NCBI GenBank assembly: GCA_011389745.1
Contig: JAABTQ010000024.1
Span: forward strand, 1-44,541
Length of the DNA: 44,541 nucleotides
Reading direction: 5' to 3'
DNA from: Desulfobacteraceae bacterium
GTDB taxonomy: Bacteria > Desulfobacterota > Desulfobacteria > Desulfobacterales > SKZT01
The translations under genes and the position numbers were made by a program. The notes beneath the pieces were generated by a model, which did not search any database, was not told where the DNA came from, and saw nothing but the letters and a program-made list of their open reading frames with translations. Shown here one piece after another: positions 14,329-28,903 of this stretch. How positions within the stretch are numbered: position 1 is the first letter of the stretch; every line of letters begins with the position of its first letter.

Positions 14329-14473
14329 GGAAAAACATCTCAGCAGCGGTTCGGCCATGCTCTTGGTTTTAGTCAGGAAGGCAATTAAATCCCGAAAAAA
14401 TCTACAAAAAACAGGGGAAGGGATTTAAGTCAGTGTGTTTGAGGCAATTAATTATTTAAGGAGGGTGAAAGCA

Positions 14474-16507
14474 ATGGCGGAAAAAGAAATTACTGAAACC
14501 TCTGAGGCTCAAATAGCGGTACACTGGGGGGAAGAAGCCTATTATGCACCAAGTGTGAAATTTATTGCCCAGGCGAATATGACCGATGAAACTATATATG
14601 ATCGTTTCAGCCTGGACAATTTCCCGGATTGTTTTAAGGAGTATGCGGACCTTCTGGATTGGTACAAATATTGGGATGAAATTTTAGATACCAGCGATGC
14701 TCCATGCTTTAAGTGGTTCAAAGGCGGACTGATCAATGTAAGCTATAACTGTGTGGACAGGCATCTTGCCAAAAACAGCAATAAGACGGCGATCCATTTT
14801 GTACCCGAGTTGGAGGAAGAAAAGGTCGAGCATATCACTTATCGTGAACTCTGGGTGCGGGTAAACGAGATGGCCGCTGTATTGCGCGATTTTTGCGGAC
14901 TCAAAGCCGGAGATCGCGTAACACTTCATATGCCGATGGTGGCGGAGCTTCCCGTGACCATGCTGGCCTGCGCAAGGCTGGGAATTATTCACTCCCAGGT
15001 GTTTGGTGGATTCAGCGGAAGCGCATGTGCAGACAGAATTGTGGACTCCGCCAGCCACGTCCTGATTACCATGGATGCCTATTACCGTGGTGGGAAAATA
15101 CTTGATCACAAGGAAAAGGCGGATGAAGCTGTGAAAATCGCGGCAAAACAGAACCAGAAGGTCGATAAGGTTCTGGTATGGCAGCGCTATCCCGGCAAAT
15201 ATTCCGCACAGACTCCCATGGTTGACGGAAGAGACTACTTTGTCAACGATTTATTGAAAGATTACTATGGTGTTCGTGTAGATCCCGTCAAGATGCCGGC
15301 GGAAGCCCCGCTCTTTCTCATGTACACCAGCGGCACCACCGGAAAACCCAAAGGATGCCAGCATGGAACAGGCGGCTTTTTAGCTTATGTTGCCGGAACT
15401 TCCAAATATGTTCAGGACATTCATCCTGAAGATGTTTACTGGTGTATGGCGGATATAGGATGGATCACCGGCCACTCTTATATCGTATACGGGCCCCTGG
15501 CCATTTGCGCGTCATCGGTTATTTTTGAAGGAGTCCCAAACTACCCCGATGCCGGAAGGTGCTGGCGGATCGCCCAGGATCTGGGAGTCAACATTTTCCA
15601 TACCGCACCTACCGCAATCCGTGCCCTTAGAAAAATCGGTCCGGATGAACCCGCAAAATATGATTATGAATTCAAGCATATGACCACCGTAGGCGAGCCA
15701 ATCGAACCTGAAGTATGGAAATGGTATTACGAAAAGGTGGGCAAAGGAAAAGCCGCTATCGTGGATACCTGGTGGCAGACTGAAACCGGCGGATTTTTGT
15801 GCAGCACCATTCCGGCGATCAAACCGATGAAACCCGGCAGCGCGGGACCCGGCATGCCTGGGATTCATCCCATTATATACGATGATGATGGCCACGAAAT
15901 ACCTCCGGGTAAAGGAATCGCAGGCAACATCTGTATCCGGAATCCATGGCCGGGGATGTTCCAGACCATCTGGGGAGATCGGGACCGCTTTGTCACGAAT
16001 TATTTTGCGCGATACTGCAAAGATCCCGACAGCAAGGACTGGAGAGACTGGCCCTATCTGACCGGTGATGCCGCCGTGATGGCTGAAGACGGTTATGTCC
16101 GTATCCTGGGCCGTACCGATGACGTCATCAATGTTTCCGGACACCGTCTGGGAACCAAGGAACTTGAATCCGCAGCACTTGTCGTTGAAGAGGTCGCGGA
16201 AGCGGCAGTTGTGCCGATCAAACATGAAATCAAGGGGGTGGAACCGGATCTGTACGTGGCTCTCAAACCCGGATATCATGCCAGCGAAGAACTTGCTAAA
16301 AAAATCAACGATGCGCTGGTGAGGGAGATCGGTCCGATTGCCAAGGCACGTAAAGTCTGGATCGTTTCGGACATGCCCAAGACACGGTCCGGAAAGATCA
16401 TGCGGCGCGTGCTTGCATCCATTTCCAACAATCGGGATGTCGGCGACACCATGACATTGGCGAACCCTGAAATTGTCGAGGAAATCAAAAAGATGGTAAA
16501 GGGTTAA
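14474..16507 (+). CDS. acs: acetyl-CoA synthetase (AMP-forming)
   Basis: Acs activates acetate to acetyl-CoA through acetyl-AMP. The 677-residue product has the P-loop-like A3 motif YTSGTTGKPKG at about residue 284, the acetate/ATP motif DTWWQTETGG, the hinge region YLTGDAA..GYVRILGRTDDVINVSGHR, and the C-terminal catalytic lysine in KTRSGKIMRR (K641), the residue inactivated by acetylation in other Acs proteins. The ATG at 14474 is chosen because AAGGAGGGTGA lies 5 bases upstream; a GTG at 14435 has no such site. An SSS symporter, a DUF294 nucleotidyltransferase and a CrbS-like kinase follow, as in known acetate-scavenging loci. Propionate could be a side substrate, but the family match is to acetate enzymes. 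Confidence 0.97.
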   Translation: MAEKEITETSEAQIAVHWGEEAYYAPSVKFIAQANMTDETIYDRFSLDNFPDCFKEYADLLDWYKYWDEILDTSDAPCFKWFKGGLINVSYNCVDRHLAKNSNKTAIHFVPELEEEKVEHITYRELWVRVNEMAAVLRDFCGLKAGDRVTLHMPMVAELPVTMLACARLGIIHSQVFGGFSGSACADRIVDSASHVLITMDAYYRGGKILDHKEKADEAVKIAAKQNQKVDKVLVWQRYPGKYSAQTPMVDGRDYFVNDLLKDYYGVRVDPVKMPAEAPLFLMYTSGTTGKPKGCQHGTGGFLAYVAGTSKYVQDIHPEDVYWCMADIGWITGHSYIVYGPLAICASSVIFEGVPNYPDAGRCWRIAQDLGVNIFHTAPTAIRALRKIGPDEPAKYDYEFKHMTTVGEPIEPEVWKWYYEKVGKGKAAIVDTWWQTETGGFLCSTIPAIKPMKPGSAGPGMPGIHPIIYDDDGHEIPPGKGIAGNICIRNPWPGMFQTIWGDRDRFVTNYFARYCKDPDSKDWRDWPYLTGDAAVMAEDGYVRILGRTDDVINVSGHRLGTKELESAALVVEEVAEAAVVPIKHEIKGVEPDLYVALKPGYHASEELAKKINDALVREIGPIAKARKVWIVSDMPKTRSGKIMRRVLASISNNRDVGDTMTLANPEIVEEIKKMVKG

Positions 16508-16939: not shown

Positions 16940-18724
16940 ATGAGTGGAACCACTTGGGTTTATATCTTTCTTGGTATTTACATTATCTACTGTTTTTATT
17001 GGGGGTTGAAAGGGTATTTTACCGAAAAAACCTCTTCGGGTTATTCGATTGCAGGCCGATCTATCCCCTTTTTCGCATTTTTGATGGCGGCCACGGCTGC
17101 ATCCTTTTCCGGATGGACCTTTATCGGTCACCCCGGATTGATCTGGCGTGATGGATTGGCATATGCCTTTGCATCTTTTTACGTCTTAACCATTCCCATT
17201 ACCGGAACCTTTTTCGCCAAAAGAAACTGGTTGATGGGCAAGCGCTACGGGTTTATCACACCCGGCGATATGTATGCCTACTATTATAATTCAGAGGCAG
17301 CCCGATGGCTGACCGTAATCACCGCTGTTTTGTACTCCATTTTCTATTCTGCGGTGCAGTTGATGGCAGCGGGTGCTCTGTTTGAGGTTATCGCAGGTGT
17401 ACCGTTTACTTTCGGTGCCCTGTTCCTTTCGTTTATTGTGTGGTTCTATGTGTGTACCGGTGGTCTCAAGGCAAGCACATGGGTCGGCGTTATCCAGTTT
17501 ATTCTGCTGGTCGGTGGTATCATCCTTCTGGGTTTTTACGTCATTCATGCGGATGTATTCGGGGGATGGTCTGAATTCTCTAGAAACGTTTTTGCTTTGG
17601 AACCAAGATTGAGAACAGTTCCCCAGGTCATCAACTTCGGCCTGGGAGGGGGATGGACTGCGGTCATGATTCTGACCTACATGTTTGCTCTGATGGGGAT
17701 TCAATCTTCCCCGGCATTTACCATGTGGAACTTTGGAATCAAATCCCCTGCGCCTCTTGCCTGGCAGCAGACTTTTATGTCGACCTTCGTGGTTGGTTTT
17801 GCATTGTTTTTCTTCTCCTCTTTCCAGGGGATTGGAGCCAAAATTTTGCAGCTTCAAGGCATTGCGCCATTTAACGCCATGACCAGTGACCGGGAAGTTA
17901 TTCCGCTTCTCATGCAACAATTTCTTCCACCGTTCATGTTAGGACTGGTTTTTGTCGGCGCCATCGCCGCCATTCATTCAACCGCGGCTCCTTATCTGGG
18001 AACCGGCGGTTCGATCCTGCTTCGCGATGTTTACTGGCGTTACGTTAAAAAACAGGAAGCTTCCCATGCCGAGCAAATCTGGGTCAACCGTATCCTTGCA
18101 ACAGTATTGACAATTGCTGCGCTTGCGGTGGGTTTAACCTCCAAGGCCGCCCTGGTTATTCTGGGAGCTTTGGCAACAGCCTTTGGATTTGTAATGTATA
18201 TTTTTCAGCTGGGCGTCATATGGGGTTTCAGGTTCCCGTCCGTAGGAGCTGTAGCAGGTACCCTTGCAGGTATGATCGCGGTATATCTTACTTATTCGAT
18301 CTGGCCTAACCCGTTGTCCATGCATTCGGCATTCTGGGGCACCTTCACAGGCTTAGTGGTGGCATACATTTGCAGAGGTATTGGAATTAAAGATGATGAG
18401 GAAACCATCAAGCGTCAGCAGGAGGTCCGCAACTTCCTGGACGACATTGATGCGCCCTCGGAAAAAGGCCAGCAATGGCGCACTATCATGAAGCCCGTGG
18501 TCCTTATCTGGTATTTCTTTGCCATCGGGCCTGCCTGTATTCTCGGCAACAACGCATTTTCATTCGCAGGATTCGTTCCCCTATGGTCATGGCAAATTGC
18601 ATGGTGGATCCTGGGTATCATAATGATGTGGGGTTTAACCTTCAAGGCGGAAATGTCCACAACCAGTGCGACCCAGATTGAAAGGGCCGAAAAAGAAACC
18701 ATGATCGTTATTAGAGAAGCTTAG
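16940..18724 (+). CDS. sodium:solute symporter (SSS/SLC5 family), probable acetate or monocarboxylate uptake
   Basis: The 594-residue, strongly hydrophobic protein has about 13 membrane segments. SSS features include GYSIAGRSIPFFAFLMAA with the FSGWTFIGHPGL segment near residues 50-75, a GLKASTWVGVIQFILL region that matches the family's GG.rAv.wtD.iQ signature, and IAAIHSTAAPYLGTGGS in the core helix. AGGAGG precedes the ATG. The position between acs and the acetate-signalling genes suggests sodium-driven acetate or short-chain carboxylate uptake; substrate specificity cannot be read from sequence. Unlike many ActP-type loci there is no DUF485 or DUF4212 partner upstream, but a 28-residue membrane peptide gene follows directly and could fill that place. 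Confidence 0.93.
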   Translation: MSGTTWVYIFLGIYIIYCFYWGLKGYFTEKTSSGYSIAGRSIPFFAFLMAATAASFSGWTFIGHPGLIWRDGLAYAFASFYVLTIPITGTFFAKRNWLMGKRYGFITPGDMYAYYYNSEAARWLTVITAVLYSIFYSAVQLMAAGALFEVIAGVPFTFGALFLSFIVWFYVCTGGLKASTWVGVIQFILLVGGIILLGFYVIHADVFGGWSEFSRNVFALEPRLRTVPQVINFGLGGGWTAVMILTYMFALMGIQSSPAFTMWNFGIKSPAPLAWQQTFMSTFVVGFALFFFSSFQGIGAKILQLQGIAPFNAMTSDREVIPLLMQQFLPPFMLGLVFVGAIAAIHSTAAPYLGTGGSILLRDVYWRYVKKQEASHAEQIWVNRILATVLTIAALAVGLTSKAALVILGALATAFGFVMYIFQLGVIWGFRFPSVGAVAGTLAGMIAVYLTYSIWPNPLSMHSAFWGTFTGLVVAYICRGIGIKDDEETIKRQQEVRNFLDDIDAPSEKGQQWRTIMKPVVLIWYFFAIGPACILGNNAFSFAGFVPLWSWQIAWWILGIIMMWGLTFKAEMSTTSATQIERAEKETMIVIREA

Positions 18725-18753: not shown

Positions 18754-18840
18754 ATGGCTAAAGAAGACTTTTACCTGATTGCAGTAGTGGCATTCGCAAT
18801 TTTATTTACCGCCTCTTTTGGCTGGGGGCTTTTCGGATAA
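18754..18840 (+). CDS. 28-residue single-span membrane peptide behind the symporter
   Basis: A near-perfect ribosome site (AAGGAGGTAAGG, from 18739) precedes an ATG and 28 codons, ending in TAA just before a strong terminator. The peptide starts MAKEDFYLIAV and ends FGWGLFG, with one hydrophobic segment of about 18 residues and a short charged N-terminus. The gene lies 29 bases after the symporter stop and is the last in that transcript. Small one-span peptides of this size often associate with transporters (KdpF and AcrZ are examples), so a symporter subunit is a reasonable inference. I do not recognise a named family. Confidence 0.75.
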   Translation: MAKEDFYLIAVVAFAILFTASFGWGLFG

Positions 18841-18985: not shown

Positions 18986-19211
18986 AAATCCCCCCTGGCC
19001 CCCCTTTTAAAAAGGGGGGAAAAGAAAGTCTCCCCTTTAAAACGGGAGAAAAGAAAGTCTCCCCCTTTAAAACGGGAGAAAAGAAAGTCTCCCCTTTAAA
19101 AAAAGGAGACAAGAAAGTCTCCCCTTTAAAAAAAGGAGAAAAGAAAGTCTCCCCTTTAAAAAAGGAGACAAGAAAGTCTCCCCCTTCTTAAAGGGGGATT
19201 AAGGGGGATTT
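18986..19211. repeat. MITE-like element: inverted C/G-rich arms enclosing a tandem repeat
   Basis: The left arm (18986-19019, starting AAATCCCCCC and ending GGGGGG) and the right arm (19180-19211, CCCCCTTCTT to GGGGGATTT) are related inverted copies, so the whole has AAATCCCCC / GGGGGATTT ends. Each arm is itself a hairpin. The same arm type recurs at 40924-41010 in the opposite arrangement. No transposase lies nearby, so it is a non-autonomous dispersed repeat if mobile at all. Confidence 0.65.
19022..19196. repeat. minisatellite, six 29-30 base units
   Basis: The phrase AAGAAAGTCT recurs at 19022, 19051, 19081, 19111, 19141 and 19170, giving unit lengths of 29, 30, 30, 30 and 29. Most units contain a small stem, CTCCCCTTT with AAAGGAG or ACGGGAG. 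The last unit merges into the right C/G-rich arm. The array is open in one frame because the 30-base period is a multiple of three, but there is no gene context, start or ribosome site. Confidence 0.92.
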
Positions 19212-19304: not shown

Positions 19305-19535
19305 ATGAAAAAACTAACACCCAAAGAAGTTCAATGTGACTGTGGTCATACCTTTACCATTGATCGAAGAAGATATTGGTGTGAAAAATGCGCCAGTCCG
19401 GTATATTATGATCTCAAGGAAAAAAAGCATCATAAAAACAATACTATTTATGTTTACGGGGTATTTCTCGGAGTGATTACCTTCCTGACATACATATTTG
19501 TAGAATTAATCGTAACCCCTTATATGAGCTTTTAA
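19305..19535 (+). CDS. small zinc-ribbon membrane protein
   Basis: The 76-residue product starts MKKLTPKEVQ. Residues about 9-35 form a zinc-ribbon-like pair of knuckles (CDCGHTF and CEKCASPVYY), followed by a basic stretch rich in His and Lys and one hydrophobic segment (about 51-72). The basic linker suggests that the ribbon stays in the cytoplasm. The ATG at 19305 follows AGAGGAA at ordinary spacing; an upstream in-frame start at 19266 lacks one. It lies 85 bases before the kinase-exonuclease fusion and may belong to the same transcript. Family not recognised; metal binding is inferred from the cysteines. Confidence 0.72.
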   Translation: MKKLTPKEVQCDCGHTFTIDRRRYWCEKCASPVYYDLKEKKHHKNNTIYVYGVFLGVITFLTYIFVELIVTPYMSF

Positions 19536-19620: not shown

Positions 19621-21783
19621 GTGAATCCCAATAACAGATACTGGTGGTTTGTTGTTGTTTCATTTACCATTGCTTTTGCGTTGGTAATCAGCCTTGGTTT
19701 TTTTCTTTGGCAACAACTTTCGGCTGCGGAAACGCAGCTTATTCTTCAAATACTCAAAGACCGGTTTATCTATGTTTTCGGCTTGATATTCGTTCTGCTG
19801 GCCGGTTTGGGATTCATTCTGGACGCCATTTTTAACAATTATATTATCCCCATCAATAAACTTACCGAAGAAATTACCCTGATCAATTCCGTGAATCCTT
19901 CCCACCGAATAAAAGTGGAGGGCAGCAAAGAGATCATGCGCCTGGTTAATGCTATCAATGTAGGTGCAAACCGTGCGCAGGATCTAAGGGGAAATGTGGA
20001 ACAAAAAATCCAGATGGCCAAGGCTGATCTTGAAGAAGAAAAAAATCTTTTAGCGGCTTTTATGGCCGAGCTTCCTGAAGGGGTTTTGATTTGCAATGCA
20101 GAAGGTCGGATTCTTTTTTATAACAAACGTGCAAAAGAGTTTTTAGAAGGACAGAGTGAAAATGATTCGCCGTTGAACAAATCCGGCCGTTTCATAGGGC
20201 TTGGACGCTCAGTATTTGGAGTCATTGATAAAAGTGTCATTGTCCATGCGCTTGATGAGATTGCCGAAAAACTCAAACGTGAAGAGATGAATATTGCCGT
20301 ATACTTTGTCATTGTGGGCAAAGAAAGCAATTTGCTTCGTGTTGAGGCTGTTCCCATATTAAATCAGCAAAGGCAACTTACCGGCTTTATCATGATTTTT
20401 TATGATATTACCCAACAACTTCAGGTGGATAGTCGGGTCGACTTTCTGTTAAAAAATCTTTCAAGAGGTATCAGGGCATCGGTGGCAAGTATTCGGGCAG
20501 CGATCGAAGCCATTCTGGAATACCCTCATATGGGTCAGGAACAGCTCACAAAATTCAACAAGATCATACACAAAGAGTCACTTGCCCTGGGGGTTATATT
20601 AGATAACGCCGCAATAGATTATTCAAGCCATGTGAAAACCGAGTGGCCGCTGGTTAAAATGCCGGCGCAGGATCTGGTGGAAACCATTGCCAAAAGGGCG
20701 GATAATGTGCTTGGCATTCAAGTTTCCGTTGAGTCGAATGATTTGGAAGAATGGGTCAGGGTTGACAGCTACTCAATTATTATGGCCATTATTTATGTCC
20801 TGAATCAGCTTAAGAATGAGATGGGAGGCCGGAATTTTTCTTGTACGCTTGGGAGAAAAGGGAGATTTGTCAATATTGATCTTTTATGGGAGGGTAGTTC
20901 CATTAAAATGGAAACCCTAAAAAAATGGGATGAACAACCTTTGATGATTGAGGATGAAGGAATACCCCTCACACTCAAAGAAGTCGTCGGGCATCATGAG
21001 GCGGAAATCTGGTCCTATTCCTGCCGGGATGCGGAAAACCAGTCATATTTGCGAATTTGTCTTCCTGCGGTTGAAGTCGTTGAATCCGATAACATTCGAA
21101 CCATGACCATTGTTCCGGAAAGCCGCCCTGAGTTCTACGATTTTGATCTGTTCAATCAGCCCGATCAAACTCCTGAATTGGATAACCAGCCGCTGTCGTC
21201 ATTGACATATACGGTTTTTGACACCGAAACCACGGGTCTGGATACGCGGGGAGGGGATGAAATTATTGCCATAGGGGCTGTCAGAGTCGTCAATGGCCGT
21301 ATTCTTCATGAGGAAATTTTTGATCAACTCATCGATCCAAAACGTCACGTACCCATAGAATCGATTAAAATTCACGGGATTCAGCCGGAAATGCTTCAGG
21401 GGCAACCGCTCATCCAACAGGTACTTCCATTATTTAATCAATTTTCCGAAGAAACCATTCTTGTGGCCCATAATGCGGCATTTGATATGCGGATGCTTGA
21501 ATTAAAAGAAAATCAGACAGGGATAAAAATTACAAATCCCGTGCTTGATACGCTGCTTCTGGCTGCCGTGGTGCACCCCGCCCAGGAAAACCAAAACCTT
21601 GAGGCCATTGCCAAGCGCCTTGGAATCAGTATTGTGGGCAGGCATACTGCTTTGGGAGATGCTCTTGCCACGGCTGAAGTCTTTTTAAAATTTCTACCGC
21701 TCTTAGCGCAACAAGGTATCCATACGCTAAAAGAAGCGCGGTTGGCCTCTAAAAAAACCATGTATGCCAGATTGAAATATTAA
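19621..21783 (+). CDS. membrane sensor with degenerate histidine-kinase core fused to a DEDDh 3'-5' exonuclease
   Basis: The 720-residue product has two membrane segments (about 9-31 and 49-72), a HAMP-like linker, a PAS-like domain (about 145-265), a region shaped like a HisKA/HATPase pair (about 265-490) and a C-terminal DnaQ-type exonuclease (about 526-715). The kinase core looks dead: where SHELRTPL would stand the sequence reads SRGIRASV, with Arg at residue 282 replacing the phosphoacceptor His, and N-box and DxGxG motifs are absent. The nuclease looks intact: D534 and E536 in FDTETTG, D622 in HNAAFD, and H675 and D680 in GRHTALGDA. A stand-alone exonuclease of this family is common beside DUF294 and SSS genes in acetate loci; here it is tethered to a membrane sensor. 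The GTG start follows GGGGG. The in vivo substrate is unknown. Confidence 0.88.
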   Translation: MNPNNRYWWFVVVSFTIAFALVISLGFFLWQQLSAAETQLILQILKDRFIYVFGLIFVLLAGLGFILDAIFNNYIIPINKLTEEITLINSVNPSHRIKVEGSKEIMRLVNAINVGANRAQDLRGNVEQKIQMAKADLEEEKNLLAAFMAELPEGVLICNAEGRILFYNKRAKEFLEGQSENDSPLNKSGRFIGLGRSVFGVIDKSVIVHALDEIAEKLKREEMNIAVYFVIVGKESNLLRVEAVPILNQQRQLTGFIMIFYDITQQLQVDSRVDFLLKNLSRGIRASVASIRAAIEAILEYPHMGQEQLTKFNKIIHKESLALGVILDNAAIDYSSHVKTEWPLVKMPAQDLVETIAKRADNVLGIQVSVESNDLEEWVRVDSYSIIMAIIYVLNQLKNEMGGRNFSCTLGRKGRFVNIDLLWEGSSIKMETLKKWDEQPLMIEDEGIPLTLKEVVGHHEAEIWSYSCRDAENQSYLRICLPAVEVVESDNIRTMTIVPESRPEFYDFDLFNQPDQTPELDNQPLSSLTYTVFDTETTGLDTRGGDEIIAIGAVRVVNGRILHEEIFDQLIDPKRHVPIESIKIHGIQPEMLQGQPLIQQVLPLFNQFSEETILVAHNAAFDMRMLELKENQTGIKITNPVLDTLLLAAVVHPAQENQNLEAIAKRLGISIVGRHTALGDALATAEVFLKFLPLLAQQGIHTLKEARLASKKTMYARLKY

Positions 21784-21810: not shown

Positions 21811-24141
21811 ATGAGCGACCAGGCTTTTGAATTTTTATCAGAAGTTTCCCCTTTCTCAGACCTTCCCAAAGATGAGTTAATAAATTACGCCAGAAGGATC
21901 TGGATTGAAAAAAAATCAAAAGGTACATTGCTTTATTCACAGGGAAAAACCCCTGTGGAGCACCTGATCATTGTCAACAGCGGTTCGCTTGAAGCGTATC
22001 ATGAGATCGGAGGTAAAAAAAGCTTCAGTGTTTTTCTCCACAGGACCGATTTGTTTGGGGGAGTTTCCATATGGATGAATGCAGCCATCTCTTTTCGGAC
22101 GCTGGTCGTGGAAAAAGATGCCAGTTATTATGTCATGCCTAAGAAAACCTTCCTGGATATTTGCAATCGCCATGAGTCGATAAAAGATTTTTTTATTGAT
22201 ATTTACAGTACAAGAATGCTCGATGATTCTTACATCTCAACCCTGGCAACGGAACAGACTTTTCAGTTTCTATCAAGCGTGGTTCCTTTTTCATTTCTCC
22301 CTGATGATGAAATTGAAAGTGTTGCGGCAAAACTTTCCATTGTCCATTATCCCAAAGGTTCCATCACATGCATTCAGGGACAGACAAAACTGGATTATTT
22401 GTATATTATCCAAAGAGGTGCGGCTGAGCGTTACTATGAGGAAAACAACCAGAAAAGCCTCCGCGCGCTTTTGGGAGAAGGTGACATTTACGGAGGCATT
22501 ACACTTCTTGTTAATAATGGAATTGCCGTAAGAACATTAAAATGCACAGAAGATTGCTACTTTTACATTCTCCCCAAAAAAGATTTTTTATCCCTTTGCT
22601 CCAAATATGAATCATATTCCGAATATTTCACCGATACATTCGGAAAACGAATGCTGGACAGGTCTTACGCGTCTATCGTATCAAAGACTTTACATCCCGG
22701 GCATGATGAACAACAGTTTTTCAACCAGCCTGTTGATACCATTTACAATCAGGATCTGGTAAGTTGCGGTTCGTCGGTTTCCATCCGGGAAGCTGCCAAG
22801 GTTATGACCAGGCACCGGTGCAGTTCCATATTTGTGCGATCTTCGGAAAAGGGGTTCGTGGGTGTGATCACAGATTCGGATCTGAGAAAAAAAGTCATTG
22901 CGGAAGGATATGATATCAATTACCCGGTTGCCGAGATTATGTCGTCTCCGATCAGTTTAATTCCCAAAGAGGCGTTGATTTTTGAAGCCATGATGGTGAT
23001 GAGCCAGAAAGGCATCAAGCACCTGGCGGTGACGGATTCTGATGAAAAGGTCATCGGGGTTGTTACCGATCGCGACCTTCTCAATGCACAGGGTCAATCG
23101 CCTTTCTTTTTAATTCGGGAAATTTCCGAAACTTCCACCCTGGATGGAATAATCGATAAACATAACCAGCTTCCCGGTGTTATTAAATCACTCATTCATG
23201 GTGGTGCCAAAGCCAAAAACGTGACACGACTGATCACAACCATTTCAGACACCATTTTAAATAAATTTATCGCAATGGCCATCAAAGACCTTGGAGATCC
23301 TCCAGCCGAATTTGTGTTTATGATCATGGGAAGTGAAGGAAGGAAAGAGCAGACCCTGAAAACCGACCAGGACAATGCCATTGTGTATCGGGATGTGAAC
23401 AAAGATTCTGAAAGTCAGGTTCAGGAATATTTTTTACAACTTGGTGAAAAGGTTTGTTCCTGGCTGGATCAGGCAGGTTACGCATTCTGCGAAGGCGACA
23501 ATATGGCCAAAAATCCGAAATGGTGCCAACCTTTATCTGTCTGGAAAGAGTATTTTTCATCCTGGATTTATTCCGGAGGTCCTGAAGAGCTTCTAAAATC
23601 GAGTATTTTTTTCGATTTTAAAGGTGCATACGGAGATATGAAAATCATTGAAGAATTGCGTCAGTTTTTATTTGACTCTTTGAAAGGTTGGGCGGGTTTT
23701 TTTAGGAACATGGCTGAAAACGCATTATATTTCAAGCCTCCCATTGGCTTTTTCCGCAATTTCGTGGTGGAATCCCGAGGGGAGCATCGCGATGCCTTTG
23801 ATGTTAAAGCGGCCATGCAGCCTGTTGTGGATTTTGCGCGAATCTATGCCTTGAAAAACAAAATCGATGAAACTAACACCCAGGATCGGCTATTTCAGCT
23901 TTACCAAAAAAAAGCTCTTCCATGGCAGGACTATAATGAACTTGACCAGGCCTACGGGTTTTTGATGCAACTGAGGTTTGTCCGGCAAATTTCAGCCATC
24001 ATGGATGAAAAGGCTAAACCGGATAATTATATCAATCCAAAGAAACTTTCTCGTATCGAACAGACCATGCTGAAAGAAATTTTTAACCGGATTGAAAAAC
24101 TTCAGGCTAAGCTTGGCTTTGAATTTACGGGGATCGGGTAA
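21811..24141 (+). CDS. double cNMP-fold, CBS-pair, DUF294 nucleotidyltransferase-like protein
   Basis: The 776-residue protein has two consecutive cyclic-nucleotide-fold domains (about 5-140 and 148-290) that are clear internal duplicates: both have FLS.V.PFS.LP.DE, PKK.FL and RMLD.SY. A CBS pair follows (about 310-430), then the DUF294 nucleotidyltransferase-like domain with GSEGRKEQTLKTDQDNA (G507-S508, D519 and D521 as the metal pair) and the DUF294 C-terminal helices. GlnD/GlnE-like nucleotidylyl transfer to a protein is the usual proposal. The cNMP cassettes lack the canonical FGE glutamate (LFGGVS, IYGGIT), so ordinary cAMP may not be the ligand. It starts 27 bases after the exonuclease fusion with AAAGGAG upstream. 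Related genes with one cNMP domain sit in CrbS/ActP acetate loci. Confidence 0.92.
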   Translation: MSDQAFEFLSEVSPFSDLPKDELINYARRIWIEKKSKGTLLYSQGKTPVEHLIIVNSGSLEAYHEIGGKKSFSVFLHRTDLFGGVSIWMNAAISFRTLVVEKDASYYVMPKKTFLDICNRHESIKDFFIDIYSTRMLDDSYISTLATEQTFQFLSSVVPFSFLPDDEIESVAAKLSIVHYPKGSITCIQGQTKLDYLYIIQRGAAERYYEENNQKSLRALLGEGDIYGGITLLVNNGIAVRTLKCTEDCYFYILPKKDFLSLCSKYESYSEYFTDTFGKRMLDRSYASIVSKTLHPGHDEQQFFNQPVDTIYNQDLVSCGSSVSIREAAKVMTRHRCSSIFVRSSEKGFVGVITDSDLRKKVIAEGYDINYPVAEIMSSPISLIPKEALIFEAMMVMSQKGIKHLAVTDSDEKVIGVVTDRDLLNAQGQSPFFLIREISETSTLDGIIDKHNQLPGVIKSLIHGGAKAKNVTRLITTISDTILNKFIAMAIKDLGDPPAEFVFMIMGSEGRKEQTLKTDQDNAIVYRDVNKDSESQVQEYFLQLGEKVCSWLDQAGYAFCEGDNMAKNPKWCQPLSVWKEYFSSWIYSGGPEELLKSSIFFDFKGAYGDMKIIEELRQFLFDSLKGWAGFFRNMAENALYFKPPIGFFRNFVVESRGEHRDAFDVKAAMQPVVDFARIYALKNKIDETNTQDRLFQLYQKKALPWQDYNELDQAYGFLMQLRFVRQISAIMDEKAKPDNYINPKKLSRIEQTMLKEIFNRIEKLQAKLGFEFTGIG

Positions 24142-25236
24142 ATGACTATTAAAAAAATTTACATTGATCGCTCCGTTCAAAACATCTCTCAGGTGCATAG
24201 CATATGCGATCGCCTCAAATGCCCGGTTAATGTAGTTGACGACGTCAGGGAAATTTACGAGCACCTTGCCAATGAAAATGACCCGGTAGGCCGGGGCAAG
24301 GAAATACTTTATCTGACCCAAAATAAAGGCGCTTTTTTAAAAAACTGCCCGGGCACTCAGAATTATATTTGTTGCGGGTATCAGATTCTTCATATCGGCA
24401 CATTTTGTACCATGGACTGCTCCTATTGTATTTTACAGTCTTATTTTCATCCTCCGCTTTTGCAGTTTTTTGTTAATCATGATGCTTTGATGGAAGAACT
24501 CGACAGCGTTTTTGCCCAAAAAAAAAACTTACGAATCGGGACAGGGGAATTCACGGACAGTATGATTTGGGAATTCTGGACTGATCTGTCGCAACTGCTG
24601 ATTCCGGCTTTTTCCAGGCAAAACCATTCGGTGCTGGAATTAAAAACAAAAACCACCGCAATAGACAATATCAGGGACATACAGCACAACCGAAAGACAA
24701 TTCTGTCATGGTCGTTAAACACTGAAGAGGTAATCCGAACTCAGGAACGAAAAACATCTTCCTTGACATCCAGGCTGGAAGCCGCTGAAAGATGCCAAAA
24801 ATGGGGATACCCTTTATCTTTTCATTTTGACCCCATGGTGATTTATCCCGGTTGTGAAAAAGATTATGAAAACGTGGTTGAAAAACTTTTTTCCCACATT
24901 CGCCCGGAAAATATCGTATGGATCAGTTTGGGAACATTTCGCTTTATGCCATCATTAAAGCCGATTATTCAAAAGCGATTTCCGGATTCTAAAATCGTAT
25001 ATGGAGAATTCATTCGTGGAATGGACGGCAAAATGAGGTATTTTAAGCCCCTGAGAATCCAACTTTACAAGACAATAATCAGCCATATCAGAAAAATTGC
25101 TCCTGAGGTTCTCTTATATTTTTGCATGGAGGATGAAAATGTATGGAAAAAAACCTTTGGCTTTGTCCCGGCAGACCGTGGCGGATTGCCGGAAATGCTG
25201 GATAAGAGCGCGGAAAAGATATGCAACCTGGGATAG
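24142..25236 (+). CDS. spore-photoproduct-lyase-like radical SAM protein
   Basis: The 364-residue product has the radical SAM cluster motif CTMDCSYC (C89, C93, C96; CxxxCxxC), preceded by NYICCGYQILHIGTFC as in the SplB group, and downstream TGEFTDSM and LELKTKT segments of the same fold. Authentic spore photoproduct lyase repairs UV lesions in spores; this organism shows no sign of sporulating, and such homologues in non-spore formers have no settled function. Its ATG directly follows the stop of the DUF294 gene, so it is certainly in the same transcript. The following nuclease gene overlaps its 3' end. I am sure of the superfamily and reasonably sure of the SPL subgroup, not of the reaction. 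Confidence 0.85.
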   Translation: MTIKKIYIDRSVQNISQVHSICDRLKCPVNVVDDVREIYEHLANENDPVGRGKEILYLTQNKGAFLKNCPGTQNYICCGYQILHIGTFCTMDCSYCILQSYFHPPLLQFFVNHDALMEELDSVFAQKKNLRIGTGEFTDSMIWEFWTDLSQLLIPAFSRQNHSVLELKTKTTAIDNIRDIQHNRKTILSWSLNTEEVIRTQERKTSSLTSRLEAAERCQKWGYPLSFHFDPMVIYPGCEKDYENVVEKLFSHIRPENIVWISLGTFRFMPSLKPIIQKRFPDSKIVYGEFIRGMDGKMRYFKPLRIQLYKTIISHIRKIAPEVLLYFCMEDENVWKKTFGFVPADRGGLPEMLDKSAEKICNLG

Positions 25237-25891
25237 AGCTAATTCATTATTCTTTTTTTTAACATGGATTTTTCTGTGGTTTCTGTTTCTTCCGGTCAAC
25301 TCTTACGCAAAGGAGTGGGTTAAGGCCAAATGGGTTGCGGATGGTGACACGATTGTTCTGGAAAATGGAGATTTAATCAGATATATCGGAATTGATGCTC
25401 CTGAAATCGACCACAAGACAAATATGGCGGAACCCTATGGAATTATTGCCAGGGAATTGAACAAAAAACTGGTTTTATCTGAAAACCTGCACCTTGTATT
25501 TGATCAGCGGCAACAAGATCGGTATGGCAGAAGGCTCGCATACGTGTTCCTGGAAAGTGGTATATTTGTCAATCAAGTCCTCATTGAAAATGGTTATGCA
25601 ATTTACTTGTATCATAAAGCCAATCTGAAATATCAGGACGTGCTGCTGAAAAAGCAGCAAGAGGCTATGACGTCCAAAAGAGGTGTTTGGAAAAATTGGC
25701 GTGAGAAGGCGGAGCGTTATATTGGAAACATTAATTCAAAACGGTTCCACATTCCTGCATGTCCATATGGTAAAAAAACTGTGCCAAAGAACATTGTGTT
25801 ATTTGAAAGCGCCTGGGATGCTTTTTGGCAAGGGTATTCACCCTGCGGGCAATGTCTGAACATTGGAGAATTTACATCCCATGACCCCTGA
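25139..25891 (+). CDS. staphylococcal-nuclease-like (SNase) protein, probably exported
   Basis: The SNase-fold core is visible in KAKWVADGDTIVLENGDLIRYIGIDAPEID, VFDQRQQDRYGRRLAYVFL and VNQVLIENGYA, with Asp, Arg and Glu at the expected catalytic and calcium-binding places. A hydrophobic stretch (about residues 39-57, LFFFLTWIFLWFLFLP, then NSYA) looks like a signal or anchor. The start is uncertain. The ATG at 25139 has GGAGG 6 bases upstream but gives a long leader before the hydrophobic segment and overlaps the radical SAM gene by 98 bases. A C-terminal segment with HIPACPYGKK and SPCGQC resembles the Ada/SNase-associated metal-binding repeat. It probably degrades or nicks nucleic acid in the envelope; the link to acetate genes is positional only. 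Confidence 0.83.
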   Translation: MYGKKPLALSRQTVADCRKCWIRARKRYATWDRANSLFFFLTWIFLWFLFLPVNSYAKEWVKAKWVADGDTIVLENGDLIRYIGIDAPEIDHKTNMAEPYGIIARELNKKLVLSENLHLVFDQRQQDRYGRRLAYVFLESGIFVNQVLIENGYAIYLYHKANLKYQDVLLKKQQEAMTSKRGVWKNWREKAERYIGNINSKRFHIPACPYGKKTVPKNIVLFESAWDAFWQGYSPCGQCLNIGEFTSHDP

Positions 25892-26165
25892 AATGATAAA
25901 AAACAAACGGTTGTTTTGCCTTTTTTTACTGGGTTGTCTGATATTTAACCATCCCATCATCTCATTGTTCAACCATGAAATATTTATTTTCGGAGTTCCT
26001 CTTTTGTTCGTATTTTTATTTTGTGCATGGGCCTTGATCATCATTGCAATGGCGTTAATAACCCGAAAACCTCCAAAGATGCATCATAAACAAACCGATG
26101 CGCCAAAATCCCATGAAAAAGAATCTGGTTTACCGTATACTTCGAATCAAGGACCGTCATGCTAG
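25881..26165 (+). CDS. small membrane protein upstream of the sensor kinase
   Basis: The 94-residue product has two hydrophobic segments (about 11-28 and 34-60) and a polar, Lys/His-rich C-terminal tail. Its ATG overlaps the nuclease stop and its 3' end overlaps the start of the kinase gene by 7 bases, so it is co-translated with both. Small two-span proteins of this type (DUF3311-like) often precede SSS-family permeases and may be a subunit of the SLC5 domain of the kinase. No ribosome site stands at good spacing; GGAG is 12 bases upstream, which fits coupling. Not assigned to a family with confidence. Confidence 0.68.
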   Translation: MTPEMIKNKRLFCLFLLGCLIFNHPIISLFNHEIFIFGVPLLFVFLFCAWALIIIAMALITRKPPKMHHKQTDAPKSHEKESGLPYTSNQGPSC

Positions 26166-28903
26166 ACACCGGTATCATATTCTTTTTCTCTTTCGGATAT
26201 ATGGGACTGCTGTTCGCCATTGCCTATTATGGGGACAGAAGAGCGGATATAGGCAGAAGCATCATCAGCAATCCATATATTTATGCCCTCTCGCTCGCCG
26301 TGTACTGCACGGCATGGACATTTTACGGCAGTGTTGGAAGAGCGGTTCAGACCGGTCCAAGTTTTCTGACCATTTATCTGGGACCCACACTCATGGCTGC
26401 GCTGGGTTGGCTAGTATTGAAAAAAATCATTCGAATCAGCAAAGTCCATCATATTACCTCCATTGCTGATTTTATTGCATCGCGATATGGAAAAAGCGCA
26501 ACCTTAGGCGGGGTGGTAACGATCATAGCTGTTCTAGGTGTAGTTCCCTATATTGCTTTACAACTTAAAGCCATTTCCATCAGTTTTCAGATCATTCAGA
26601 ATTTCCCCGAGATAATAATGCCATCCATTCATTTTGATAAAATCCCAGTTCTTAAAGACACAACATTCCATGTTGCATTGCTTCTGGTGGTTTTTGCCAT
26701 TCTTTTCGGTACACGCCATCTGGAAGCAACCGAACGTCATGAGGGTTTGGTGGCGGCAGTTGCTTTTGAGTCCATTGTGAAACTGGTGGCATTTCTTACG
26801 GTCGGCATATTTGTCACATACTTTATTTATGAAGGATTCGGAGATATCATCAATAAAGCAAAAGAAACTCCTGAGTTAAACAAGCTGTTTACCGTCGGCA
26901 TTGAAAACGGCTCTTATGCCGATTGGGGAGTGAGTATATTTCTTTCCATGATGGCCATTATTTGTTTGCCAAGGCAGTTTCAGATCGGGGTGGTGGAAAA
27001 TGTCAATGAAGAGCATGTTAATAAAGCTATCTGGCTTTTTCCTTTATACCTTCTGGCTATCAATATTTTTGTTTTGCCGGTGGCGTTTGCAGGTTTACTT
27101 CACTTTCCCGCAGGAAATGTGGATGCAGATACTTTTGTGTTAAGCCTTCCAATGATTGAAAACGAACAGGGGCTGGCATTGTTCGTTTATATCGGGGGAA
27201 TGTCCGCTGCCACCAGCATGGTCATTGTCGAAACCATCGCACTTTCCACAATGATATGCAACGATCTGGTCATGCCGGTGCTGCTAAGGATGCCTTTCAC
27301 ACGGCTGTCTGAGCGAAGCGATTTGAGCAAGTTTTTGCTGTCCGTGCGTCGTGGAGGAATCGCTCTAATTCTACTCTTAGGTTACACTTATTTCCGATTT
27401 ATCGGTGAATTTTATCCACTGGTTTCTATTGGTCTGGTCTCATTCGCTGCCGTAGCACAGTTTGCACCAGCTATTTTCGGGGGGATTTTCTGGAAAGGTG
27501 GTAACCGGATGGGGGCCCTTTGCGGCCTCATTGCCGGCTTTTTGGTATGGATCTATACGCTTTTTCTTCCATCTCTGGTTCAGGCCGGATTTATCCACCA
27601 GGATTTTGTTTTTAACGGACCTTACGGTATTGCACTATTAAAACCTTTTCAATTGTTTGGGCTGGAAGGTTTCAACAGTATCACCCACGCGGTTTTCTGG
27701 AGCATGTTTTTCAACATCGGCGCCTATATCGGGGTGTCGGTTTTTTCTAGACCGTCGGCTTTGGAAGCCACACAGGCTGCGCTTTTTGTGGATGTATTCA
27801 GGTATTCCAGAGGGTCCGGCAAATCTTTTTTCTGGCGGGGAACCGCATCGGTTCCGGATTTAAGGTCACTTTTGAGCAGGTTTCTGGGAAGGCAAAGAGC
27901 GGATGAAGCATTGACCGGTTATATGGATAAACATCAGATGGATTGGCAAAAGTCAGCTACATCAGATGCAGGTCTTGTGAACTATGCGGAAAAACTTCTG
28001 GCTGGAGCCATCGGGTCGGCATCGGCTCGGGTGATGGTATCGTCGGTGGTCAAGGAAGAATCCCTGGGCATCGAAGAAGTCATGAACATTCTTGACGAAA
28101 CCCGTCAGGTCATTGAATACAGTAGAGAACTGGAAAAAACATCACTGGAACTTCAAGCCGCCAATGAAAGATTAAAAGAACTGGATAAGCTCAAAGACGA
28201 ATTTATTTCCACCGTAACCCATGAATTGCGCACACCTTTAACTTCAATCCGTGCTCTGGCTGAAATTCTTCATGATAATCCCAACATCGATGAAACTCAG
28301 AAAAAACAATTTACCCATATCATCATCAAGGAAACCGACCGTTTGACCCGTTTAATTTCCAAAGTATTGGATTTACAAAAAATCGAATCAGGCAAAATGG
28401 ATTTACATATCTCAGAAATTGACATGATAGACCTGATCGATGACGCGCTTGCCTGTGTGAGCCAATTGCTCAAAGATAAAGAGATCGCTTCGCAGGTAAA
28501 TACGCCGGAAAAAGCTCCATTTACAATCGGAGACCGTGACAGACTCATCCAGGTGATGGTCAATCTTATTTCAAATGCTGCCAAATTTTGTGAGCCCCAA
28601 AAAGGCACAATCACCATCAATTTAGGGGTAAAAGAAAATTATTTACAGGTGGATATCATCGACAATGGGATCGGTATCAGCAATGAAAATCAGGATATTA
28701 TTTTTGAAAAATTTCGCCAGGTCAAGGACTTTTCGCGTGGACGGCCTACCGGAAGCGGTCTTGGTCTCACCATCACCAAAAAAATTATCGAACATCACAG
28801 TGGTAAAATCTGGGTAGAAAGTGAGCCTGGTAGAGGTTCAGTTTTTTCATTTACCGTGCCCATAAAGGGCAGTCCCGAATGTAATCTGAAAGTAAGTAAT
28901 TAG
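26159..28903 (+). CDS. CrbS/CbrA-type sensor histidine kinase (SLC5-STAC-HisKA-HATPase)
   Basis: The 914-residue protein begins with an SSS/SLC5 transporter-like domain (about 1-520, 12-13 membrane segments), followed by a STAC-like connector (about 535-650; NYAEKLLAGAIGSASARVMV) and a coiled segment. The kinase core has the phosphoacceptor His at residue 688 in THELRTPLTSI, the N box NLISNAAKFC, DNGIGIS and GSGLGLTITKK, so it should be active. Proteins of this layout sense or transport small carboxylates or histidine (CbrA) or control acs (CrbS). AAGGA precedes the ATG by 5 bases. No response regulator follows; the gene ends exactly at a repeat whose first bases supply the TAG stop codon. 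A role in acetate sensing is inferred from layout and neighbours. Confidence 0.92.
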   Translation: MLDTGIIFFFSFGYMGLLFAIAYYGDRRADIGRSIISNPYIYALSLAVYCTAWTFYGSVGRAVQTGPSFLTIYLGPTLMAALGWLVLKKIIRISKVHHITSIADFIASRYGKSATLGGVVTIIAVLGVVPYIALQLKAISISFQIIQNFPEIIMPSIHFDKIPVLKDTTFHVALLLVVFAILFGTRHLEATERHEGLVAAVAFESIVKLVAFLTVGIFVTYFIYEGFGDIINKAKETPELNKLFTVGIENGSYADWGVSIFLSMMAIICLPRQFQIGVVENVNEEHVNKAIWLFPLYLLAINIFVLPVAFAGLLHFPAGNVDADTFVLSLPMIENEQGLALFVYIGGMSAATSMVIVETIALSTMICNDLVMPVLLRMPFTRLSERSDLSKFLLSVRRGGIALILLLGYTYFRFIGEFYPLVSIGLVSFAAVAQFAPAIFGGIFWKGGNRMGALCGLIAGFLVWIYTLFLPSLVQAGFIHQDFVFNGPYGIALLKPFQLFGLEGFNSITHAVFWSMFFNIGAYIGVSVFSRPSALEATQAALFVDVFRYSRGSGKSFFWRGTASVPDLRSLLSRFLGRQRADEALTGYMDKHQMDWQKSATSDAGLVNYAEKLLAGAIGSASARVMVSSVVKEESLGIEEVMNILDETRQVIEYSRELEKTSLELQAANERLKELDKLKDEFISTVTHELRTPLTSIRALAEILHDNPNIDETQKKQFTHIIIKETDRLTRLISKVLDLQKIESGKMDLHISEIDMIDLIDDALACVSQLLKDKEIASQVNTPEKAPFTIGDRDRLIQVMVNLISNAAKFCEPQKGTITINLGVKENYLQVDIIDNGIGISNENQDIIFEKFRQVKDFSRGRPTGSGLGLTITKKIIEHHSGKIWVESEPGRGSVFSFTVPIKGSPECNLKVSN

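Follow-up and report, generated by a model that had tools for sequence, protein, structure and literature searches.

A membrane pseudo-histidine-kinase joined to a DEDDh exonuclease in bacterial acetate loci, and the receiver gene conserved beside it

In the window (44,541 nucleotides of contig JAABTQ010000024.1 of a Desulfobacteraceae bacterium, which were analysed here), one gene encodes a membrane protein in which a histidine-kinase fold without kinase chemistry is joined to a DEDDh-type exonuclease. It has been conserved in at least seven lineages of bacteria, together with acetate-sensing genes and a stand-alone receiver gene. This receiver gene, often placed between the fusion and the gene of a CrbS-type symporter-kinase, is what is new here. 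The fusion itself couples a pseudokinase like DivL, a kind already known, to a nuclease as output. Our literature search, with subscription journals mostly outside its reach, found no paper on the kinase–exonuclease fusion, on its receiver, or on DUF294 proteins together with an exonuclease and acetate; most papers mentioning DUF294 seem, from their titles and abstracts, to have no bearing on it.

Domain architecture of the fusion protein

The features of the gene and its neighbours are given in Table 1. The open reading frame starts with a GTG codon; this start is backed by a GGGGGG stretch immediately 5′ of it and by homologues with the same first residue. The two membrane spans and the PAS-like sensor proposed in the initial annotation are supported by hydropathy and by the Pfam PAS_9 match. 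The second transmembrane helix continues into a HAMP-like helical linker, and the periplasmic part found in WalK/VicK and PnpS is absent from the N-terminal membrane region. Pfam recognises RNase_T at residues 532-688 (E 2.4e-37) and returns no HisKA or HATPase_c match in the protein; NCBIfam PnpS matches it in part, from residue 77. The protein is distinct from the PP_0353-type stand-alone nuclease of ~200 residues, since its exonuclease is joined to ~520 residues of membrane pseudokinase. A degenerate or misread frame was considered and rejected, given the family-wide invariants and the 80 homologues without internal stops in the matched stretch.

Table 1. Features of the fusion gene and of the surrounding acetate locus (window positions)
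Feature	Position	Strand	Details
Whole gene, membrane pseudo-histidine-kinase fused to DEDDh exonuclease	19621..21783	+	720 aa, GTG start
Transmembrane helix 1	19636..19716	+	residues 6-32 (hydrophobic to about 35); hydropathy, model helix
Transmembrane helix 2	19765..19845	+	residues 49-75 (hydrophobic about 40-76); hydropathy, model helix
PAS domain	20074..20415	+	residues 152-265; Pfam PAS_9, E 3.3e-6
Pseudo-DHp helical hairpin	20410..20625	+	residues 264-335; R282 at the His position, R285 (H+3) kept
Pseudo-ATPase (CA) domain	20653..21066	+	residues 345-482; N-box Asn and G1/G2 glycine boxes lost
Linker motif RPEFYDFDLF	21124..21153	+	residues 502-511
DEDDh (RNase_T/PolC-like) exonuclease domain	21214..21684	+	D534, E536, D622, H675, D680
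Acetyl-CoA synthetase (AcsA)	14435..16507	+	TIGR02188
Sodium:solute symporter of acetate locus	16940..18724	+	
cNMP-binding x2 / CBS x2 / DUF294 nucleotidyltransferase / DUF294_C	21811..24141	+	NTase motif GSEGR...DQD
Small membrane protein accompanying CrbS in relatives	25863..26165	+	
CrbS/CbrA-type symporter-histidine kinase	26159..28903	+	intact HELRTP, N and G boxes

The core of the protein is a histidine-kinase fold, composed of a DHp hairpin and a Bergerat-type CA domain, but it is not an active histidine kinase. A profile of residues 255-492, built from 43 homologues and searched against the PDB, matches histidine kinases across both DHp and CA (4u7n, E 3.5e-11). The AlphaFold model of the kinase segment alone (mean pLDDT 84) matches histidine kinases in Foldseek with E about 3e-12 and DivL (4q20) with E 5e-10 and Z 12.4 (Foldseek/VIA). 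Furthermore, the CA domain on its own superposes on kinases with Z about 14 and an rmsd of 2.7 Å over 131 residues. Structure prediction and profile search, both suggested in the initial annotation, thus agree on a kinase-like fold. The full-length model matches WalK over 477 columns, with 9a5d and 4i5s as best structural matches; its domain arrangement is unreliable because of the low scores (mean pLDDT 76, pTM 0.43).

The loss of chemistry can be seen against the neighbouring CrbS-like protein, whose kinase domain is intact. The core profile can be aligned to that domain over its full length, and the His, the N-box Asn and the Gly boxes are all replaced in the fusion. The phospho-acceptor His is absent in 78 of the 81 family members, where the position holds E, R, K, Q, G or other residues. 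A His at the H-box position occurs only in L057, L063 and L070 (Desulfatitalea-like; 3/81), and the two of these that were inspected, L063 and L070, have no recognisable ATP boxes. None of the homologues examined combines an intact HELRTP box with ATP boxes. In the family alignment the N-box Asn column is mostly R, Q or K and the G2 box reads PLTL, while the G1 Asp is replaced by Trp in 78 of 81 members. R285 is kept in 77 of 81 (T or V in the other four) and, together with W342, D382, W423 and H459, is nearly fixed across many phyla. The remainder of the DHp/CA part drifts, with few invariant residues, and the PAS region is better conserved. The RPEFYDFDLF linker is nearly invariant; it belongs to the most conserved stretches of the protein and is still recognisable in a divergent subfamily (see below).

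As judged from its sequence, the nuclease part is an intact DEDDh exonuclease with complete Exo I–III motifs. All 81 members have D534, E536 and D622, and all 79 sequences reaching that far have H675 and D680. The nearest solved relatives are the exonuclease domains of PolC, DnaQ and DinG (2p1j, 1j53, 8zef); the full-length model superposes on the PolC/DnaQ exonucleases mostly at 1.6-2.4 Å, with an rmsd of 1.6 Å for the PolC match. The invariance of all five nuclease residues in these sequences argues that catalysis is under selection. The initial description of a pseudo-histidine-kinase joined to an intact DEDDh exonuclease is therefore confirmed by profile, AlphaFold/Foldseek comparison and alignment, and R282, D534, E536, D622, H675 and D680 all lie where it had placed them.

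The fusion is no product of chance, as 404 relatives were found in genome contigs, and the best 80 of these 404 are nearly all full length. Full-length homologues occur in Desulfobacterota, Chloroflexota, Calditrichota, Spirochaetota, Ignavibacteria and the Alpha-, Beta- and Gammaproteobacteria (including Competibacteraceae), and the fusion is also carried on Paracoccus and Cupriavidus plasmids. A sample of 150 genomes, taken from the order to which a betaproteobacterial relative belongs, included 15 with a match at E 1e-40 or better. In Desulfobacterota, a second, divergent subfamily likewise combines the dead core with the nuclease. Three of its members (L089, L090 and L091), which have a receiver gene upstream, carry a long extra, probably periplasmic region between the membrane helices. 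In a tree of exonuclease domains, one exonuclease of the separate form (L121) has a long branch and its placement is uncertain; for this reason, and since the tree was computed without an outgroup, we make no claim on the order of fusion or fission.

The receiver gene and the acetate locus

In 55 of the 73 loci with enough upstream sequence to be evaluated, the gene immediately 5′ of the fusion encodes a stand-alone receiver. The encoded protein has ~121 residues, and the gap to the fusion is usually 8-54 bp among the loci measured; in Paracoccus denitrificans the two genes overlap. The gene order CrbS – receiver – fusion is found in Chloroflexota, Calditrichota, Spirochaetota, Alpha- and Betaproteobacteria, and an upstream receiver also occurs in the divergent Desulfobacterota subfamily and on the Paracoccus plasmids. 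In a separate Burkholderiales-type sample, 7 of 9 loci likewise have the receiver just upstream. As rough context, about two dozen receiver matches in the source genome look stand-alone by frame length, so that chance adjacency of receiver and fusion should be around one percent. As the loci are related to each other, we place weight on the spread over phyla and not on a p-value.

The phosphorylation residues of the receivers are canonical, with D53 in 52 of 58 proteins and Glu in six. The receivers with this Asp to Glu exchange (L020, L025, L028, L029, L060 and L056) are possibly permanently ‘on’ or dead. Receiver and pseudokinase were also compared by covariation on 55 pairs: interface positions ranked in the top 0.7% in one test, but the block of DHp helix and receiver helix did not rise above background. 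No gene fusion of receiver and pseudokinase was found among the homologues or in the betaproteobacterial sample. Apparent chimeras in the latter were discarded, as their long frames proved to be out-of-frame read-through of a separate receiver gene.

The receiver gene is absent from the window and hence does not belong to the operon of the fusion there. Its usual interval holds instead a 30-bp tandem repeat (six copies, 19002-19183) and the gene of a 76-residue protein with a Zn-ribbon and a membrane helix (19305..19535, + strand), which is conserved beside the fusion in Desulfobacterales. In the source genome, the orthologue is located on another contig (C4:83217-83576) and stands out with E 8.8e-50 versus 6e-24 for the next receiver; it directly follows a second cNMP-CBS-DUF294 paralogue (L132:4795-7128) of the same genome. 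Of the other genomes tested that have no adjacent receiver, 13 out of 15 carry the orthologue elsewhere. In the cases examined, the neighbour of this receiver is a DUF294 gene, a divergently transcribed CrbS gene, a set of acs-symporter genes or another fusion gene, present as a second copy. In three further genomes without the orthologue the fusion is positioned at a contig edge.

The conserved neighbourhood comprises acs, a sodium:solute symporter, DUF294 and a CrbS/CbrA-type symporter-kinase. Several further genes accompany it. A membrane microprotein of 28 residues, MAKEDFYLIAVVAFAILFTASFGWGLFG, is encoded just 3′ of the symporter (18754-18840, + strand) and is too short for usual gene calling; it occurs at the same place in many Desulfobacterota loci. 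Downstream, a spore photoproduct lyase-like radical SAM gene (24142-25236, + strand) is a conserved member of the neighbourhood in Desulfobacterales, and so is the following open reading frame, which is putatively staphylococcal-nuclease-like. The N-terminal 560 residues of the CrbS-like protein match a solved histidine kinase (10ed_A, E 1.8e-71), which supports its assignment. Judging by its name together with a 2026 preprint (PMC13022988), 10ed would be the structure of the CbrA transceptor.

The DUF294 gene starts 27 bp downstream of the fusion, and the two genes are adjacent or nearby in many loci. In one case (L134:7528-9690) a DEDDh exonuclease and a CBS-DUF294 protein are naturally fused into one protein of 720 residues. 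A gammaproteobacterial locus (L133) contains acs, a symporter, a separate exonuclease of 203 residues, DUF294, an NtrC-type regulator and a CrbS-like kinase. In Pseudomonas putida, the genes of the CBS protein PP_0354 and the RNase_T exonuclease PP_0353 form an operon which is a target of MxtR/ErdR, the CrbS/R homologue, and whose promoter is bound by the CrbR homologue ErdR (PMC9927547). Natural fusion, gammaproteobacterial locus and P. putida operon together indicate that nuclease and DUF294 belong together, so the link drawn initially to the DUF294 protein stands. The accompanying statement that the exonuclease is usually separate in gammaproteobacterial acetate loci holds for L133 and P. 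putida, but fused forms exist in Gamma- and Betaproteobacteria as well.

A possible signalling route and its alternatives

The CrbS-type symporter-kinase controls acetate and pyruvate use in the bacteria studied. Because the receiver gene adjoins the fusion in most relatives, the signal probably arrives through CrbS and this receiver, and not solely via the PAS and membrane part of the fusion. We propose that the fusion is an exonuclease tethered to the membrane and regulated by a former sensor kinase of the WalK/PnpS type. Its kinase core would no longer make or transfer phosphate and would most likely serve as a docking platform for the stand-alone CheY-like receiver. The CrbS-type symporter-kinase would phosphorylate the receiver, and the phosphorylated receiver would bind the pseudo-DHp helices, as DivK~P does on DivL. 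Through the RPEFYDFDLF linker, the bound receiver may then turn the exonuclease on or off, and the DUF294 nucleotidyltransferase may act in the same pathway.

This route is proposed because a dead core and a phosphorylatable receiver make up the arrangement of DivL and DivK. DivL is a pseudo-histidine-kinase which reads DivK~P (PMC4211667), and the fusion shares with it, at the level of gene pairing, a dead kinase core and a stand-alone receiver. R285 is equivalent to DivL Arg553, for which a contact with DivK~P has been proposed (PMC4211667); its retention is suggestive only, since the same Arg belongs to the ordinary HELR box. For the chain from CrbS via receiver and pseudokinase to the exonuclease, in which we infer phosphorylation, docking and gating by this analogy, we judge the chances to be evenly balanced. 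More tentatively, and with somewhat less than even confidence, the whole may form a non-transcriptional branch of acetate/pyruvate control, in which the CrbS-phosphorylated receiver gates the tethered exonuclease via the retired kinase, so that nucleic acids or nucleotides would be processed under phosphorelay control with the participation of DUF294.

Other roles of the regulatory part can be envisaged. As in the initial model, the membrane helices and the PAS domain might sense a signal of their own which the pseudokinase relays as a conformational change, with the receiver not being a direct partner. The better conserved PAS region would fit such an input, and the extra N-terminal region of L089-L091 makes it plausible. 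However, the near-universal co-occurrence and tight order with one receiver subfamily would then be left unexplained, and we regard this possibility as unlikely. Signalling might also run backwards, the fusion being a docking sink or scaffold which tunes CrbS–receiver signalling while its nuclease activity is separate or minor. Pseudokinases such as DivL do feed into kinase networks (PMC4211667), and receiver genes adjoin CrbS even where the fusion is elsewhere. The invariant nuclease residues nevertheless argue for selected catalysis, and an exonuclease without the kinase part also goes together with DUF294 and CrbS-type systems (also in PMC9927547), which renders a backwards role very improbable. 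Only slightly less improbable is a kinase part reduced to a membrane anchor and dimeriser without a signalling role. It would account for the drift of DHp/CA, with few invariants and the Asn and Gly boxes gone, and for those acetate loci served by a separate exonuclease without kinase part, but not for the residues R285, W342, D382, W423 and H459 that are nearly fixed across phyla, nor for the retained receiver partner.

A further reading is about the substrate and does not conflict with the CrbS–receiver–pseudokinase–exonuclease route. Small nucleotides or RNA ends, as put forward initially, would be candidate substrates. The exonuclease might remove a nucleotide added by DUF294 to a protein or an RNA 3′ end, under the control of carbon supply. 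The genes are neighbours in many loci, naturally fused in L134 and organised as an operon in P. putida (PMC9927547), and DUF294_C has been assigned to a GlnD/GlnE-like group (PMC3710099). On the other hand, the nearest solved relatives of the nuclease are DNA-polymerase proofreading and DinG exonuclease domains. Furthermore, the single deletions in P. putida differ: loss of PP_0353 delays growth on pyruvate and not on acetate, while deletion of PP_0354 leaves growth on pyruvate unaffected (PMC9927547). A modification–demodification pair of this kind appears doubtful. For PP_0353, its authors speculate on mRNA degradation (PMC9927547). As a pseudokinase part has not been described for that protein, its phenotype can be transferred only to the nuclease domain of the fusion.

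Typical outputs of two-component systems are DNA-binding regulators, enzymes of cyclic-nucleotide metabolism and the flagellar motor. The route from CrbS to the exonuclease suggests that a metabolic signal could switch a nuclease without transcription. If the dead kinase indeed reads the receiver, the DivL principle would no longer be confined to a single cell-cycle pathway but would also operate in a widespread metabolic module. A testable mechanism would then be at hand for the so far unexplained phenotype of the P. putida exonuclease and for DUF294 proteins, which are uncharacterised. Gene sets for such tests are found in Cupriavidus necator and in Paracoccus denitrificans PD1222, where PDEN_RS25405, PDEN_RS25410 and PDEN_RS25415 encode the CrbS-like kinase, the receiver and the fusion.

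Comparison with known systems

The closest parallel is DivL of Caulobacter (PMC4211667, 4q20), likewise a pseudokinase of the membrane that has PAS, DHp and CA folds and lacks the autokinase His, in which the equivalent H+3 arginine is kept and which is paired with a stand-alone receiver. However, DivL carries Tyr where the His would be and works on the CckA pathway, whereas the output of the fusion is a covalently joined exonuclease. WalK/VicK and PnpS share the layout of transmembrane region, linker, PAS, DHp and CA, but they are active kinases with a periplasmic part and have no nuclease. PP_0353 of P. putida resembles the fusion in that the gene of a DEDDh-type exonuclease is tied both to a CBS-domain gene and to a CrbS-type system. 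It differs as neither a membrane part nor a pseudokinase part has been described for it, and as CrbR/ErdR is a DNA-binding regulator and not a stand-alone receiver. The PolC, DnaQ and DinG domains have the same fold and all five catalytic residues; in contrast to the fusion, they are neither membrane-bound nor fused to kinase-like domains. Lastly, the CrbS/CbrA symporter-kinases (10ed) are represented in the window by the neighbouring gene at 26159-28903, and it is this neighbour, not the fusion, which we propose as the upstream kinase.
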